Origin: Candidatus Palauibacter scopulicola
GTDB taxonomy: Bacteria > Gemmatimonadota > Gemmatimonadetes > Palauibacterales > Palauibacteraceae
Assembly (NCBI RefSeq): GCF_947581915.1
Contig: NZ_CANPWG010000009.1
Span: 1-64,000 of the forward strand
Length of the DNA: 64,000 nucleotides
Direction of reading: 5' to 3'
The notes below the pieces were generated by a model. The model had not been told where the DNA came from. It searched no databases and saw nothing but the letters and a program-made list of their open reading frames with translations. The position numbers and the translations under genes are program-made. Each line of letters starts with the position of its first letter. The stretch's first letter is position 1. This document shows, in pieces, positions 41,212 through 44,765 of the stretch.

Positions 41212-42099
41212 TTGACTGAGATCCGGAAGGTCGGGGTGGTCGGAGCGGGACTGATGGGGAGCGGGATCGCGCAGGTCAGCGCGGCGGCCGGCTATGAGAC
41301 GCTCGTGCGGGAGGTGGAGCAGGGGTTCCTGGATCGGGGGATGGCCGGGATCGGGAAGAACCTCGACCGTGCCGTTCAGAAGGAGAAGCTCGGTGCGACG
41401 GACCGGGACGCGACGATGGCCCGTCTTCACCCGACGCTTGAACTGGCGGACCTGGCGGCGTGCGACCTCGTCATCGAGGCGATCACCGAGAACCTCGGCG
41501 CGAAACACGCGCTTTTCGACGAACTCGGCGGACTGTGCGCGGCGGAGACGATCTTCGCCTCCAACACGTCGAGCCTGTCCATCACCGAACTCGCCGCGGA
41601 GACGGATCGCCCGGAACGCTTCGTCGGTCTCCATTTCTTCAGCCCCGTGCCGGTCATGCCGCTGGTGGAGGTCGTCCGCTGCGGGCAGACGGCGGAAGCG
41701 ACGTTCGAGGCCGCCTTCGCGTTCGCCGGATCGCTCGGGAAGAGCCCGATCGCCTGCGGCGACAACACCGGTTTCGTGGTGAACCGGCTCCTCGTTCCCT
41801 ACATGCTCGACGCGATCCGCGCGTACGAGGCCGGGGTCGCGTCGATCCCCGACATCGACAAGGGACTGCGTCTGGGCTGCGGATACCCGATGGGTCCCTT
41901 CACGCTGGGCGATTTCGTGGGACTCGACACGTTGTACCACATCACGGGGATCATGTACGACGAGTACAAGGAGGCGCGCTTCGCCTCTCCCCCCCTCCTG
42001 CGCCGCATGTACCTGGCCGGCTACCACGGCCGGAAGACGGGGAAGGGCTTCTACGACTACAGCGGCGACGAACCCGTCGTGTCCAGCTTCGTGCTGTAG
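41212..42099 (+). CDS. hbd: 3-hydroxyacyl-CoA (3-hydroxybutyryl-CoA) dehydrogenase
   Basis: This 295-residue NAD(P)-dependent enzyme oxidises or forms 3-hydroxyacyl-CoA. The nucleotide motif is VGVVGAGLMGSGIAQVSAA, the catalytic region FASNTSSLSITELA and GLHFFSPVPVMPLVEVV contains the active His, and DNTGFVVNRLL opens the dimerisation domain. The length fits stand-alone Hbd/PaaH rather than a FadB fusion. The start is TTG at 41212 behind AAGGAG. A strong hairpin follows the stop. With the thiolase upstream it could run the first steps of polyhydroxybutyrate or butyrate metabolism. Confidence 0.92.
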   Translation: MTEIRKVGVVGAGLMGSGIAQVSAAAGYETLVREVEQGFLDRGMAGIGKNLDRAVQKEKLGATDRDATMARLHPTLELADLAACDLVIEAITENLGAKHALFDELGGLCAAETIFASNTSSLSITELAAETDRPERFVGLHFFSPVPVMPLVEVVRCGQTAEATFEAAFAFAGSLGKSPIACGDNTGFVVNRLLVPYMLDAIRAYEAGVASIPDIDKGLRLGCGYPMGPFTLGDFVGLDTLYHITGIMYDEYKEARFASPPLLRRMYLAGYHGRKTGKGFYDYSGDEPVVSSFVL

Positions 42100-42113
42100 C
42101 GCGTGCCCCAAAC

Positions 42114-42146
42114 GGACCGGGAGACGGCGCGACGTCTCCCGGGTCC
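42114..42146 (+). terminator. hairpin after hydroxyacyl-CoA dehydrogenase
   Basis: GGACCGGGAGACG (42114-42126) pairs with 42133-42146 across a six-base loop, giving a 13-bp stem with one bulged G. It lies 14 bases after the stop. There is no U-tract; it also insulates the XRE module from read-through. Confidence 0.65.
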
Positions 42147-42172
42147 ACCTACGGTCTCCATAGCGTGCGTTA

Positions 42173-42201
42173 TTGCAAATCGTGTAATGCAAGATTAGCT
42201 T
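42173..42201 (+). promoter_or_regulatory. predicted promoter of XRE-ImmA/PIN operon (leaderless)
   Basis: TTGCAA (42173-42178), a 17-base spacer and TAGCTT (42196-42201) precede the ATG at 42208 by six bases. No ribosome-binding site is present. The -10 overlaps a perfect dyad, so repression by the encoded XRE protein is likely. Confidence 0.5.
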
Positions 42202-42205
42202 GCAT
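42187..42205. promoter_or_regulatory. predicted operator (7-5-7 palindrome)
   Basis: ATGCAAG (42187-42193) and CTTGCAT (42199-42205) are perfect inverted arms around ATTAG, two bases before the XRE start codon. A related TTGCAA lies at 42173-42178. Position and symmetry fit an autoregulatory XRE operator. Confidence 0.6.
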
Positions 42206-42207
42206 CG

Positions 42208-43332
42208 ATGACGATGACATCCGATTCTCGCGTTGGACGCCGCCTTAAGGCGGCCCGAGAACGAGCTTGCCTGACGCAAGAGGAACTGGCCGGTGCTCTG
42301 GGCCTCCGGCATCGCCAGACCATCGCCAGCATCGAATCCGGGAAACGATCTCTGAGCGCCAGGGAATTGGTCAGCGCCATGGACGTGCTGGGCGTCGATC
42401 TCGACTACTTCACCGACCCGTTCCGACTCGTGGGCGAGGGTCAGTTCTCGTTCAGGACGAGCACCGACGTTGGCGGCCCGGTGCTCGACGACTTCGAAGA
42501 TCGCGCGGGACGCTGGATTGCCATGTACCGTGAGCTCTCCCTGGAGCAGGGTATAGAGCCGCGGTGGCTGGAGTCCAAGCTGGCCTTGACGGCCCGATCA
42601 TCCTTCGAGGACGCCCAGGCCGCCGGGGAGTCGGTAGCCGACCGCTGGCAACTGGGTTCGTGCCCCGCGGCGAAGCTGCGGTCGGCCATGGAGAGCCGCG
42701 CCTCAATCCTGGTGCTCGATGTCGATATGCCTCCCGGCATTTCCGGCGCCGCATCAAGGACACCTGGGCTGAATTGCGTGTTCGCTAATCGCAGGGATCC
42801 CGAGCGACGTCGGAACTTCGACTTGGCGCACGAGCTTTTTCATCTGCTCACGTGGGACGCCATGCCACCCGAGCGGGCCGAAGACGTGGAGGTGCCAAGA
42901 ACCGGGAAGGGATGGCGCGTCGAGCGGCTTGCGGAGAACTTCGCCGCCGCAGTCCTCATGCCTGGACAGATTCTGTGCCAGAAGTGGGAGCGGCAGTCGG
43001 AGGCAACCGACATTCACCAGCGGATCAAGGAGATCGCTGCCGATTTCCGCGTCTCCGGAACGGCCTGCAAGTGGCGTCTCCGCAACCTCGAAGTGCTCAC
43101 AAGGTCCGATCTCGCGGAGATCGACGACCGGCGCCTCGCGGCCAACGGACACTCAACCGACCCCCCTCCCGAAGTGCCGGCATTCAGCAAACCGTTCATC
43201 GATCGGGTTGCCTTAGCCCTCGATACCGGTCGCCTTTCCGTTAAGCGGGCGGCTTCCCTGCTCGATCTCTCGTTACCGGATCTCGTTTCCCTTATCCGAG
43301 GTCATGGTCACGAGACGTACTTCGAGGCGTGA
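42208..43332 (+). CDS. XRE HTH - ImmA/IrrE metallopeptidase fusion protein
   Basis: This 374-residue protein fuses an N-terminal XRE helix-turn-helix (residues 8-62; GRRLKAARERACLTQEELAG and RQTIASIESGKRSLSA) to an ImmA/IrrE-type zinc peptidase with HELFH at residues 208-212 and the third ligand E243 in LAENFAAAVLMP. A C-terminal extension (about 315-374, KPFIDRVALALDTGRLSVKRAASLL) looks like a second small helical DNA-binding or dimer domain. Related fusions cleave a repressor or act as antitoxins. The gene overlaps the PIN-like gene by 29 bases. Codon use is less GC-biased than its neighbours, suggesting horizontal acquisition. Leaderless start predicted. Confidence 0.9.
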   Translation: MTMTSDSRVGRRLKAARERACLTQEELAGALGLRHRQTIASIESGKRSLSARELVSAMDVLGVDLDYFTDPFRLVGEGQFSFRTSTDVGGPVLDDFEDRAGRWIAMYRELSLEQGIEPRWLESKLALTARSSFEDAQAAGESVADRWQLGSCPAAKLRSAMESRASILVLDVDMPPGISGAASRTPGLNCVFANRRDPERRRNFDLAHELFHLLTWDAMPPERAEDVEVPRTGKGWRVERLAENFAAAVLMPGQILCQKWERQSEATDIHQRIKEIAADFRVSGTACKWRLRNLEVLTRSDLAEIDDRRLAANGHSTDPPPEVPAFSKPFIDRVALALDTGRLSVKRAASLLDLSLPDLVSLIRGHGHETYFEA

Positions 43333-43843
43333 AGCGATAGGTCTCGCGCCGAACGTCATCGTACTTGTGGACACCATGATCGTCATCGAGGCGGTCGACA
43401 CCGCGTGCTGGAACGCCATCACTGGGAGCCGGGAGATCGTCACGGTTGAAGAGTGTGGGGAAGAGCTGCAGCGCGGTGATCCCTCCATGCACGGATACGT
43501 CCAAGTACGGGAAAGGGATATCGCACGCGCCATCGTGAGGCCGCTTCCGGTTGCAGCTGACATCACGTTTCGTCTGCAGTACCCCGATGCGTATCGCCTG
43601 GACCCCGGTGAGCGAGACCTGTTGGCGTTGGCCTGTACGCTCAGCGACGACTTCGCCCTATGTAGCTGTGACAGGGCGGCTGTAGGTGCCGCTCACGCAT
43701 TGGGCTGGCTCGATAGGGTCGTATCGCTCCAAGCTCTCGCGACGAGCCTCGGAGTACGGCCGTGCCGTCCGTTCAAGCGCCAATACACCGAGAGGCAATT
43801 GGAGATCTGGAGGACGTCGCTGCTCCTGGAGGCTGGCCCCTAA
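43304..43843 (+). CDS. PIN-like domain protein (putative toxin nuclease)
   Basis: This 179-residue protein looks like a PIN-type ribonuclease. Candidate catalytic acids are D23 (VLVDTMIVIEA), E49 or E50 (IVTVEECGEEL), D105 (LDPGERDLLALA) and D123 (LCSCDRAAV), in the order and spacing expected of the fold. It starts inside the end of the XRE-ImmA gene and is followed by a GC hairpin. The pairing of a PIN nuclease with an XRE-ImmA/IrrE protein fits a toxin-antitoxin or defence unit, though direct evidence is lacking. A start later than 43304 is possible, because the first 17 residues precede the fold. Confidence 0.75.
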   Translation: MVTRRTSRREAIGLAPNVIVLVDTMIVIEAVDTACWNAITGSREIVTVEECGEELQRGDPSMHGYVQVRERDIARAIVRPLPVAADITFRLQYPDAYRLDPGERDLLALACTLSDDFALCSCDRAAVGAAHALGWLDRVVSLQALATSLGVRPCRPFKRQYTERQLEIWRTSLLLEAGP

Positions 43844-43868
43844 GGCGGTTTCAAGGACGGTTCAGAAC

Positions 43869-43895
43869 GGCGCCCTCGGCCAGCCCGAAGGCGCC
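43869..43895. terminator. hairpin between PIN-like and PAP2 genes
   Basis: GGCGCC (43869-43874) pairs with GGCGCC (43890-43895); after one mismatch TCGG pairs with CCGA around a CCAGC loop. It lies between two convergent genes and can act in both directions. There is no U-tract. Confidence 0.55.
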
Positions 43896-43901
43896 TTGCG
43901 G

Positions 43902-44765
43902 CTACTGCTGGAACTGGACCTGAAGGCCTAGTGCGTTCCCGGCAAGCAGGGGCCGGATCCGGACGGGGGCGGGTGGAGACGGTCCGAGGGAGGCCGACGA
44001 GGGTTCGACGCCGAGCCAGTTCTCGGCGGCGGCCGTCGCCAGGCCGCCCACCCACCAGCCGATGAAGCCGCCGACGACCACGTCGGACAGCCAGTGGCGG
44101 TCTCCGTAGATTCGGGCGAGTCCCGTCCCCGCCGCGGCCACGTAGAAGGGGATGGCCCACCCGCCGTCGGTCACCTCGTCGACCGCGGCGGCGATGGCGA
44201 AGGCGTAGGCCGTGTGGCCGGACCCCAGGGAGGCGTTGCCGCGGAAGGGATCGAAGTGGAGGACGCCCCGCTCATCTCTCGGGCGGCTTCGTCCCAGCGT
44301 CCAGTTGAGGACGGTGTTCGACATCGAGCCGGCGAAGACCCCGAAGAAGGCCGAAGTCGCCCGCCGGAGGCCCCGTTCCCCGTCCAACGCGACCCCGAGC
44401 AGAACTCCGCCCCCGGCCAGCAGGGGCGCGGTCCGCTCCCAGTCGCCGTACGTGTGGCCGGCCTCGGCCAAGTCGCGTCCCAACGGTCCCTGGTGGTCCA
44501 GCGCCAGGCCGCGGACGTGCTCGTCGAGGAGGAAGGCGCCGCCGAGCACGCCAGCCGCGAGGGCGACGCGCCTCCAGGTCTGGCCCGCCTCCCCATCCGC
44601 CGGCTCCGGGACTGCGAGGTTCGGGTTTCGTGCCGATGCGGGGTCCTGCGCAGCCAGTGGCAGGGTTAGCAAGAGCCACGCAACCCCGAGGATGGCGAGG
44701 CCCGCTCGGGGACCTCCCGTGCGCGTGATCCGGCGGCTGGCGCCGCAACGTCCGATGGATGTCAT
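43902..44765 (-). CDS. PAP2 family phosphatase
   Basis: This 287-residue membrane protein is a PAP2 (type 2 phosphatidic acid phosphatase) homologue, acting on lipid phosphates or undecaprenyl pyrophosphate at the outer face of the inner membrane. The three motifs are seen as TLGRSRPRDE, GSGHTAYAFA (PSGH-type) and ARIYGDRHWLSDVVVGG. A signal-like segment (LAILGVAWLLLTLPLAAQ) leads the protein. The ATG at 44765 is the first start with a plausible AAGGCG site. It diverges from recF across 124 bases. Confidence 0.87.
   Translation of the reverse strand: MTSIGRCGASRRITRTGGPRAGLAILGVAWLLLTLPLAAQDPASARNPNLAVPEPADGEAGQTWRRVALAAGVLGGAFLLDEHVRGLALDHQGPLGRDLAEAGHTYGDWERTAPLLAGGGVLLGVALDGERGLRRATSAFFGVFAGSMSNTVLNWTLGRSRPRDERGVLHFDPFRGNASLGSGHTAYAFAIAAAVDEVTDGGWAIPFYVAAAGTGLARIYGDRHWLSDVVVGGFIGWWVGGLATAAAENWLGVEPSSASLGPSPPAPVRIRPLLAGNALGLQVQFQQ

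Follow-up and report, generated by a model that had tools for sequence, protein, structure and literature searches.

The window, by which we mean the whole analysed stretch of 64,000 nucleotides from Candidatus Palauibacter scopulicola (Gemmatimonadota), carries two overlapping genes on its forward strand. The upstream gene (42208..43332, 374 aa) encodes a fusion of an XRE HTH domain with an ImmA/IrrE zinc protease (P0001, the regulator), and the downstream gene (43304..43843, 179 aa) encodes a PIN-fold nuclease (P0002) that is predicted to be a toxin. Both open reading frames and the 29 bases that they share (43304-43332) are as an earlier note on this DNA had described them, and so are their less GC-biased codons, with GC3 values of 0.741 (P0001) and 0.711 (P0002) against 0.853-0.905 in the neighbours (0.905, 0.884, 0.895, 0.889 and 0.853 for five genes). 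The pair lies in a segment with the approximate bounds 42101..43868, inserted between two convergent host genes. Of the hairpins proposed on both sides, both are present: the left one (42117..42142) has 13-nt arms and a similar sequence in two pair-carrying sister genomes, but the right one (43869..43895) resembles, by eye, sites without the pair, and since a similar hairpin occurs in the intergenic region of pair-less sisters, it is probably part of the host site.

A probe from the right flank found a match in 14 of the 17 genomes of the genus, the genome of origin included. In three of these the pair occupies this site; in the other 11 the flanking genes are there but the pair is not. At nine of the pair-less sites about 20-240 bases lie between the aligned flanks (G003 being weakly similar), and the other two, in G004 and G006, hold another insert, about 0.65 kb long. 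For five loci with flanks from outside the genus, only the pair aligns to the window. Since sister genomes keep the flanking genes without the pair, its presence at the window site is an insertion polymorphism and shows that the pair is mobile. The three genus members with the pair have both reading frames unbroken and no catalytic residue lost, and both genes are under purifying selection, as the dN/dS values among the three carriers show (0.22-0.28 for P0001, 0.16-0.37 for P0002). The gap between the convergent genes takes other cargo as well, as seen in L091 and L098, the loci of G004 and G006 with the 0.65-kb insert.

P0001 consists of an XRE HTH domain, followed by an ImmA/IrrE (M78) zinc protease and a C-terminal helical domain. 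Its Pfam matches are HTH_3 (E=9.7e-11) and Peptidase_M78 (3.4e-11), in agreement with the HTH-zinc peptidase fusion first proposed for it, and the HELFH motif at 208-212 does not vary among the 15 homologues aligned, nor, taken singly, do H208, E209, H212 and E239. E243, which had been named along with HELFH for the zinc peptidase, does not hold up, because position 243 may be E, D or N, whereas E239 never varies. The zinc ligands of IrrE are H82, H86 and E113, with a last spacing of 27 residues, and as H212 and E239 are likewise 27 residues apart, the third ligand of P0001 is probably E239 rather than E243.

Among the PADLOC models, 14 RmrA models matched P0001 at E≤3.2e-7, the best (1.5e-25) over residues 11-366, which covers most of the C-terminal extension; capP followed with 5.9e-15 and capH weakly with 7.4e-4. 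In PHROGs the match was to PHROG 2439 (2.3e-36). The C-terminal stretch (318-374) forms a recognisable motif in all 33 fusions that we aligned and is therefore not specific to the window. From these matches we infer that P0001 is an RmrA-like antitoxin and autorepressor.

For P0002, Pfam, NCBIfam, PADLOC and PHROGs gave no match, even at E-values up to 10, and its search against PDB sequences yielded one chance-level match (E=0.13). The Pfam PIN models, compared with each of the 16 rows of a family alignment (A1), did not match at E up to 1, nor did the A1 profile match a PIN protein among PDB sequences. Since sequence searches gave no PIN match, the PIN identity of P0002 rests on fold and motif. 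An AlphaFold (AF2) model computed from a 28-row alignment (A4) has a pLDDT of 90.0 and a pTM of 0.84. Foldseek found three PDB matches to this model at E<0.001, namely a Pyrococcus horikoshii protein (1ye5, 7.1e-4), VapC4 (5h4g, 7.5e-4) and VapC15 of Mycobacterium tuberculosis (4chg, 8.5e-4), and VIA-align placed it closest to 1y82 (Z 11.6, rmsd 3.3, 125 residues aligned) and VapC4 (Z 11.5). All 50 VIA-align matches listed have Z-scores of at least 9.2, with VapC, Nob1, SMG6 and HARP among them; we take them to be PIN-fold proteins, although several titles do not name the fold. Sequence identity between P0002 and the VapC structures is about 8-20% in these alignments. An earlier model from nine sequences (pLDDT 53.5), which had no Foldseek match at E≤0.001 and whose ten best VIA-align matches (Z 3.2-6.6) were PIN-fold proteins, several of them not so named in their titles, was superseded by the 28-row model. 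The fold had been named beforehand as a test of the PIN assignment, and the predicted structure is indeed that of a PIN domain.

The acidic residues tell a more mixed story. D23, W36, D100, G102, E103, D123, S141, L142 and G150 are invariant in A4, and E54 is found in 27 of the 28 rows; in A1, all 16 rows have D23, D100 and E103, and E54 and D123 each occur in 15. Thus, of the acidic set originally picked out, D23 and D123 are conserved, but E49 (17/28), E50 (8/28) and D105 (9/28) vary, and E54, D100 and E103 are conserved instead. The position of D105 is where VapC toxins usually carry an acid, and the invariant acids near it in the P0002 family are D100 and E103. In its predicted structure P0002 is a PIN nuclease by fold, with an acidic site, and its family represents a PIN subfamily that goes unrecognised in the four libraries searched.

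Upstream of P0001, the forward strand carries TTGCAA (42173..42178), the operator-like palindrome TGCAAGATTAGCTTGCA (42188..42204) and the start codon (ATG, 42208), in this order. TTGCAA is a putative -35 element that would double as an operator half-site, and TAGCTT (42196..42201), 17 nt after it, is a putative -10 element, suggested by the conserved spacing. Several Gemmatimonadota homologues have TTGCA upstream at an equal distance. Since only 6 nt separate the end of the TA..TT hexamer from the ATG, the P0001 transcript is likely to be leaderless, as judged from the sequence. Of the separate operator-promoter that had been attributed to the pair, the operator part is borne out by the palindrome, but a consensus scan of 42050-44000 found no sigma-70-type promoter, and it is conservation that speaks for one.

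The palindrome has one mismatch to the motif TGCAAGATWATCTTGCA, which occurs with at most three mismatches in 11 of 19 upstream regions, a count that is partly circular because the motif was picked by eye in the very sequences that were scored. Eight of the 11 regions belong to Gemmatimonadota, with the same distance to the start in seven and a distance differing by 3 bases in one; the remaining three belong to DISARM-linked alphaproteobacterial plasmids (L031-L033), so that the predicted operator is common to different phyla. In 300 dinucleotide-block shuffles, the match of these 11 regions was never equalled. In the other eight regions, including those of the Burkholderia and Rhizobium plasmids, the match is poor (5-8 mismatches). 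Two loci outside the derivation of the motif have 3 mismatches at the same position (G280) and 6 mismatches (G394), respectively. All three genus members with the pair have a site at 1-3 mismatches, and in the 3.6-Mb genome of origin, next to the one-mismatch site at the locus, the only other site within three mismatches has three.

Homologues of P0002 are sparsely distributed. Of 295 related genomes, 14, the genome of origin included, have one, and an alignment search found the P0002 type in 16 of 395 genomes of the phylum; both searches together yield 17 distinct Gemmatimonadota genomes. The genome_contigs set contained seven P0002 loci, six of them in genomes already counted, and the seventh (L029) has the pair. 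Among 72,556 plasmid records, five contain a homologue; they come from Burkholderia, Acidibrevibacterium, Methylocystis, Sinorhizobium and Rhizobium. The alignment search with the PIN protein found one viral contig (L035) and the regulator alignment found more, 'viral' being the record label of these contigs, while two PIN queries against GenBank phage records gave no match.

Within this distribution the two genes mostly stay together. A P0001 homologue lies directly upstream of the PIN gene in 15 of the 17 Gemmatimonadota genomes, 12 of them with an apparently intact PIN (a more distant one in G390) and three with a PIN remnant. The exceptions are G177, which has a broken PIN and no regulator in the stretch examined, and G345, where of the regulator no more than the final ~83 residues remain next to an intact PIN; this solitary piece, a single case, hints that the C-terminal part of the fusion is the part that binds the toxin. 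All five plasmids with the PIN have the pair, and either protein of one plasmid, used as query, retrieves the same five. In the viral contigs, a scan with the regulator alignment found 23 records, including the one known from the PIN search, and 21 of these have a PIN on the same strand directly downstream of the regulator. Among the 22 other records, 17 have a P0002-like PIN in this arrangement (two with identical PIN proteins, and many of the viral records being mutually close), three have a more distant PIN (20-24% identity), one has a PIN on the opposite strand and one has none. Adjacency, like the PIN fold named in advance as a test, is therefore conserved at the majority of the loci examined in Gemmatimonadota, plasmids and viral contigs, with the exceptions given.

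The divergence of P0001 and that of P0002 are correlated over 33 of 34 pairs, L026 having been left out as its stretch closed with a stop codon (r=0.968; none of 2000 permutations as high), and over the 401 comparisons with more than 40% divergence in P0001 the correlation is 0.843. Shared ancestry or co-inheritance would also produce such a correlation.

With P0001 as query at E up to 1e-10, four further plasmids with distant regulators appeared; a PIN-like gene comes next in two of them (Rhodothermus, Rhizobium gallicum) and none in Thermus and Synechococcus. Among the partners of distant regulators, that in L087 scored above the Pfam PIN cut-off (4.1e-6) and that in L088 weakly (0.039), and both matched PADLOC PDC-S70. 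More distant regulators, at about 30% identity, are also found in L075, L076, L077 and L080, where the next genes are small and have PIN-like acidic motifs by eye (at 2597-3139 in L075 and 2597-3055 in L076); no PIN model matched these four partners.

On viral contig L035, the pair lies downstream of two DNA methyltransferase-like genes, one of which was scanned and matched MTase_II, with a terminase-like gene (by eye) further on. In L113, L117, L125, L128 and L129 a serine recombinase-like gene (by eye) lies near the pair, and the large genes downstream differ among these loci; those of L113, L117 and L125 had no match in PADLOC. These five loci possibly represent a mobile defence carrier.

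The regulator also occurs without its partner. A close P0001 homologue (E<1e-90) is present in 22 genomes among the 295 relatives, 10 of which have an intact PIN, three a PIN remnant and nine no PIN. The remnants are in G073, G195 and G240, and the regulator frame is intact in two of these and damaged in G195. Seven of the nine orphan regulators belong to one genus, g27 (L067-L073), and all seven have lost the catalytic glutamate of the HEXXH motif, reading HGLFH in four cases and HGLFR in three; no PIN was found in the stretch available for each, which in one case extends only 250 bases downstream. The loss of the glutamate, which may go back to one event, fits a protease that matters only in the presence of the toxin. 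The other two orphans, in G083 and G152, keep HELFH.

On three plasmids, from Acidibrevibacterium, Methylocystis and Sinorhizobium, the pair is followed immediately by drmA and a DUF1998 (drmB-type) gene, the PIN gene overlapping the start of drmA by 4, 4 and 1 bases, respectively. PADLOC confirms the assignment for two of them, with DrmA and DrmB matches in the Methylocystis plasmid and a DrmMI match in that of Sinorhizobium. In the stretches compared, DrmA and DrmB queries matched only these three loci (L031-L033) and none at the window or the Gemmatimonadota loci. Since only three of 54 DrmA-matching plasmids belong to the five pair-bearing plasmids, and since in three related plasmid DISARM loci (a further DrmA match being left unscored) the methylase is joined directly to drmA without an insert, the link between the pair and DISARM is real but optional, and DISARM is ruled out as its general context. 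We found no paper in the open-licence literature that describes DISARM together with ImmA and PIN, and the available portion of PMC12458937 does not mention the link. In another DISARM locus, on a Thiodictyon plasmid (L137, 2759-3908), an MqsA-type antitoxin gene and secB lie between the methylase and drmA.

The earlier note could not name the combination of the two genes, but its general kind is already known. In the available part of Makarova et al. 2009 (PMC2701414), XRE-COG2856 fusions in operons with PIN or RelE are predicted to be toxin-antitoxin systems, which occur on plasmids and prophages; COG2856-PIN links are tabulated 42 and 60 times, and the protease is viewed as cleaving the XRE repressor in a three-component system. 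Our pair corresponds to this prediction in having HTH and M78 protease in one protein, a conserved adjacent PIN gene in a predicted operon, and a patchy spread over plasmids, phage-type contigs and chromosomes. It goes beyond it in the operator, the structure and the P0002-type PIN subfamily, which that part of the paper does not contain.

An experimentally tested relative is RosmerTA, whose RmrA is described in the portion available of PMC10440598 as an ImmA-protease antitoxin, often with an HTH domain; the same text lists PIN-like domains among the associations of the ImmA node, and the tested RmrT of the Kita phage, not described there as a PIN protein, depolarises membranes. P0001 is an RmrA-type HTH-protease, and RosmerTA antitoxins are its relatives. 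P0002 has no PADLOC match.

In CapH-CapP and PprI(IrrE)-DdrO an HTH repressor is likewise combined with an ImmA/IrrE-type zinc protease, but there the two are separate proteins, whereas they are fused in P0001. According to the accessible text of PMC10904395, ssDNA stimulates the PprI protease and is said to activate CapP as well. CapH with CapP, as well as CapW/BrxR, regulate adjacent immune operons, DISARM being named for both families jointly in the part of PMC13373217 available to us. The pair in turn precedes an immune operon on three plasmids, whereas the genes flanking it in the window are shared with pair-less sisters and are not an immune operon. In VapKSC, from the same part of that source, a CapK/CapS-like pair controls a VapC-like toxin and the system protects against at least one phage (PMC13373217). 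As proposed for our pair, its PIN toxin is controlled by a DNA-damage sensor that has relatives among the regulators of immune operons, but VapKSC has three genes, and its sensor is a kinase that acts on a STAS-domain antitoxin instead of a protease-HTH fusion.

We consider the pair to be quite probably an XRE-ImmA/IrrE plus PIN toxin-antitoxin module of the RosmerTA-like kind, with a likely role in the response to stress or phage. The candidate toxin-antitoxin or defence module of the earlier note is thereby supported, with both the PIN fold and the conserved adjacency in its favour. Against it stand the missing family-model match of P0002, the orphan regulators that keep HELFH, the loci of G345 and G177, the two viral records and the two distant plasmid regulators that depart from the usual arrangement, and the eight upstream regions with a poor palindrome match. 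By analogy to the systems above, the fusion would bind the palindrome through its HTH domain, repressing its own, probably leaderless, transcript, and would hold the PIN nuclease inactive, perhaps through its C-terminal domain. Single-stranded DNA, arising from damage or phage replication, might then trigger the protease, as in PprI and CapP, so that the fusion cleaves itself; repression would be lifted and the PIN nuclease freed, which would cut RNA and stop growth. DNA binding, toxin binding, cleavage and a role in defence are all proposed on these analogies. If the defence reading is wrong, the pair would still be an ordinary toxin-antitoxin pair, correctly annotated.

An alternative that we regard as possible, if rather doubtful, is that the main task of the fusion is to control transcription in response to DNA damage, as a fused CapH-CapP, and that the PIN protein is not an addictive toxin but an RNase effector under its regulation, to which the supposed antitoxin does not bind. 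The capP match (5.9e-15) and the weak capH match (7.4e-4) are in line with this, as are the position of the pair directly before drmA-drmB on three plasmids and the control of adjacent immune operons, including DISARM, by CapH with CapP and by CapW/BrxR (PMC13373217, in the part available). Toxin binding is nevertheless suggested by the C-terminal stretch, which is present in 33 fusions and in G345 is all that remains of the regulator beside an intact PIN. Moreover, the pair is solitary in the window, and PIN remnants beside regulators that have been kept are typical of toxin loss.

The remaining explanations have less in their favour. That the pair is a domesticated or decaying remnant, with no present function in the genome of origin, would agree with its patchy presence (3 of 17 genus genomes), its lower GC3 and the degraded copies in G073, G195, G240 and G177; yet the reading frames and catalytic residues are intact in three carriers, the operator is kept at 1-3 mismatches and dN/dS is 0.16-0.27 in four comparisons of the window with its sisters, all of which makes this improbable. 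We give still less credence to a VapBC module with an unusual antitoxin. VapBC modules encode the PIN toxin just downstream of its partner, as is the case here, and P0002 shares with VapC the PIN fold with conserved acids, VapC toxins being among its closest solved folds. However, the partner is a 374-aa XRE-zinc-protease (M78) fusion instead of a small protein of the VapB type, identity to VapC is only about 8-20% and no Pfam PIN model matched any of the 16 A1 rows.

A more speculative idea, to which we attach less weight than to the controller alternative, combines both functions in a portable 'controller with a fuse': a CapH-CapP-like sensor in one chain would repress a promoter through TGCAAGATWATCTTGCA and, once triggered by ssDNA, would induce the adjoining defence operon (DISARM on the plasmids) and also free a growth-stopping PIN RNase in case the defence fails or is lost, and in Gemmatimonadota the pair would act as a stand-alone abortive-infection module. 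The pair offers a concrete and testable case of how RNase toxins, and possibly entire defence operons, are gated by protease-repressor fusions.

The genome of origin contains a second XRE-ImmA gene (L001, G000:C28), which encodes 363 aa and is overlapped by a downstream open reading frame. By eye, the latter starts PIN-like and then appears to be out of frame, and the locus may be what is left of a decayed pair whose PIN is of another subtype.
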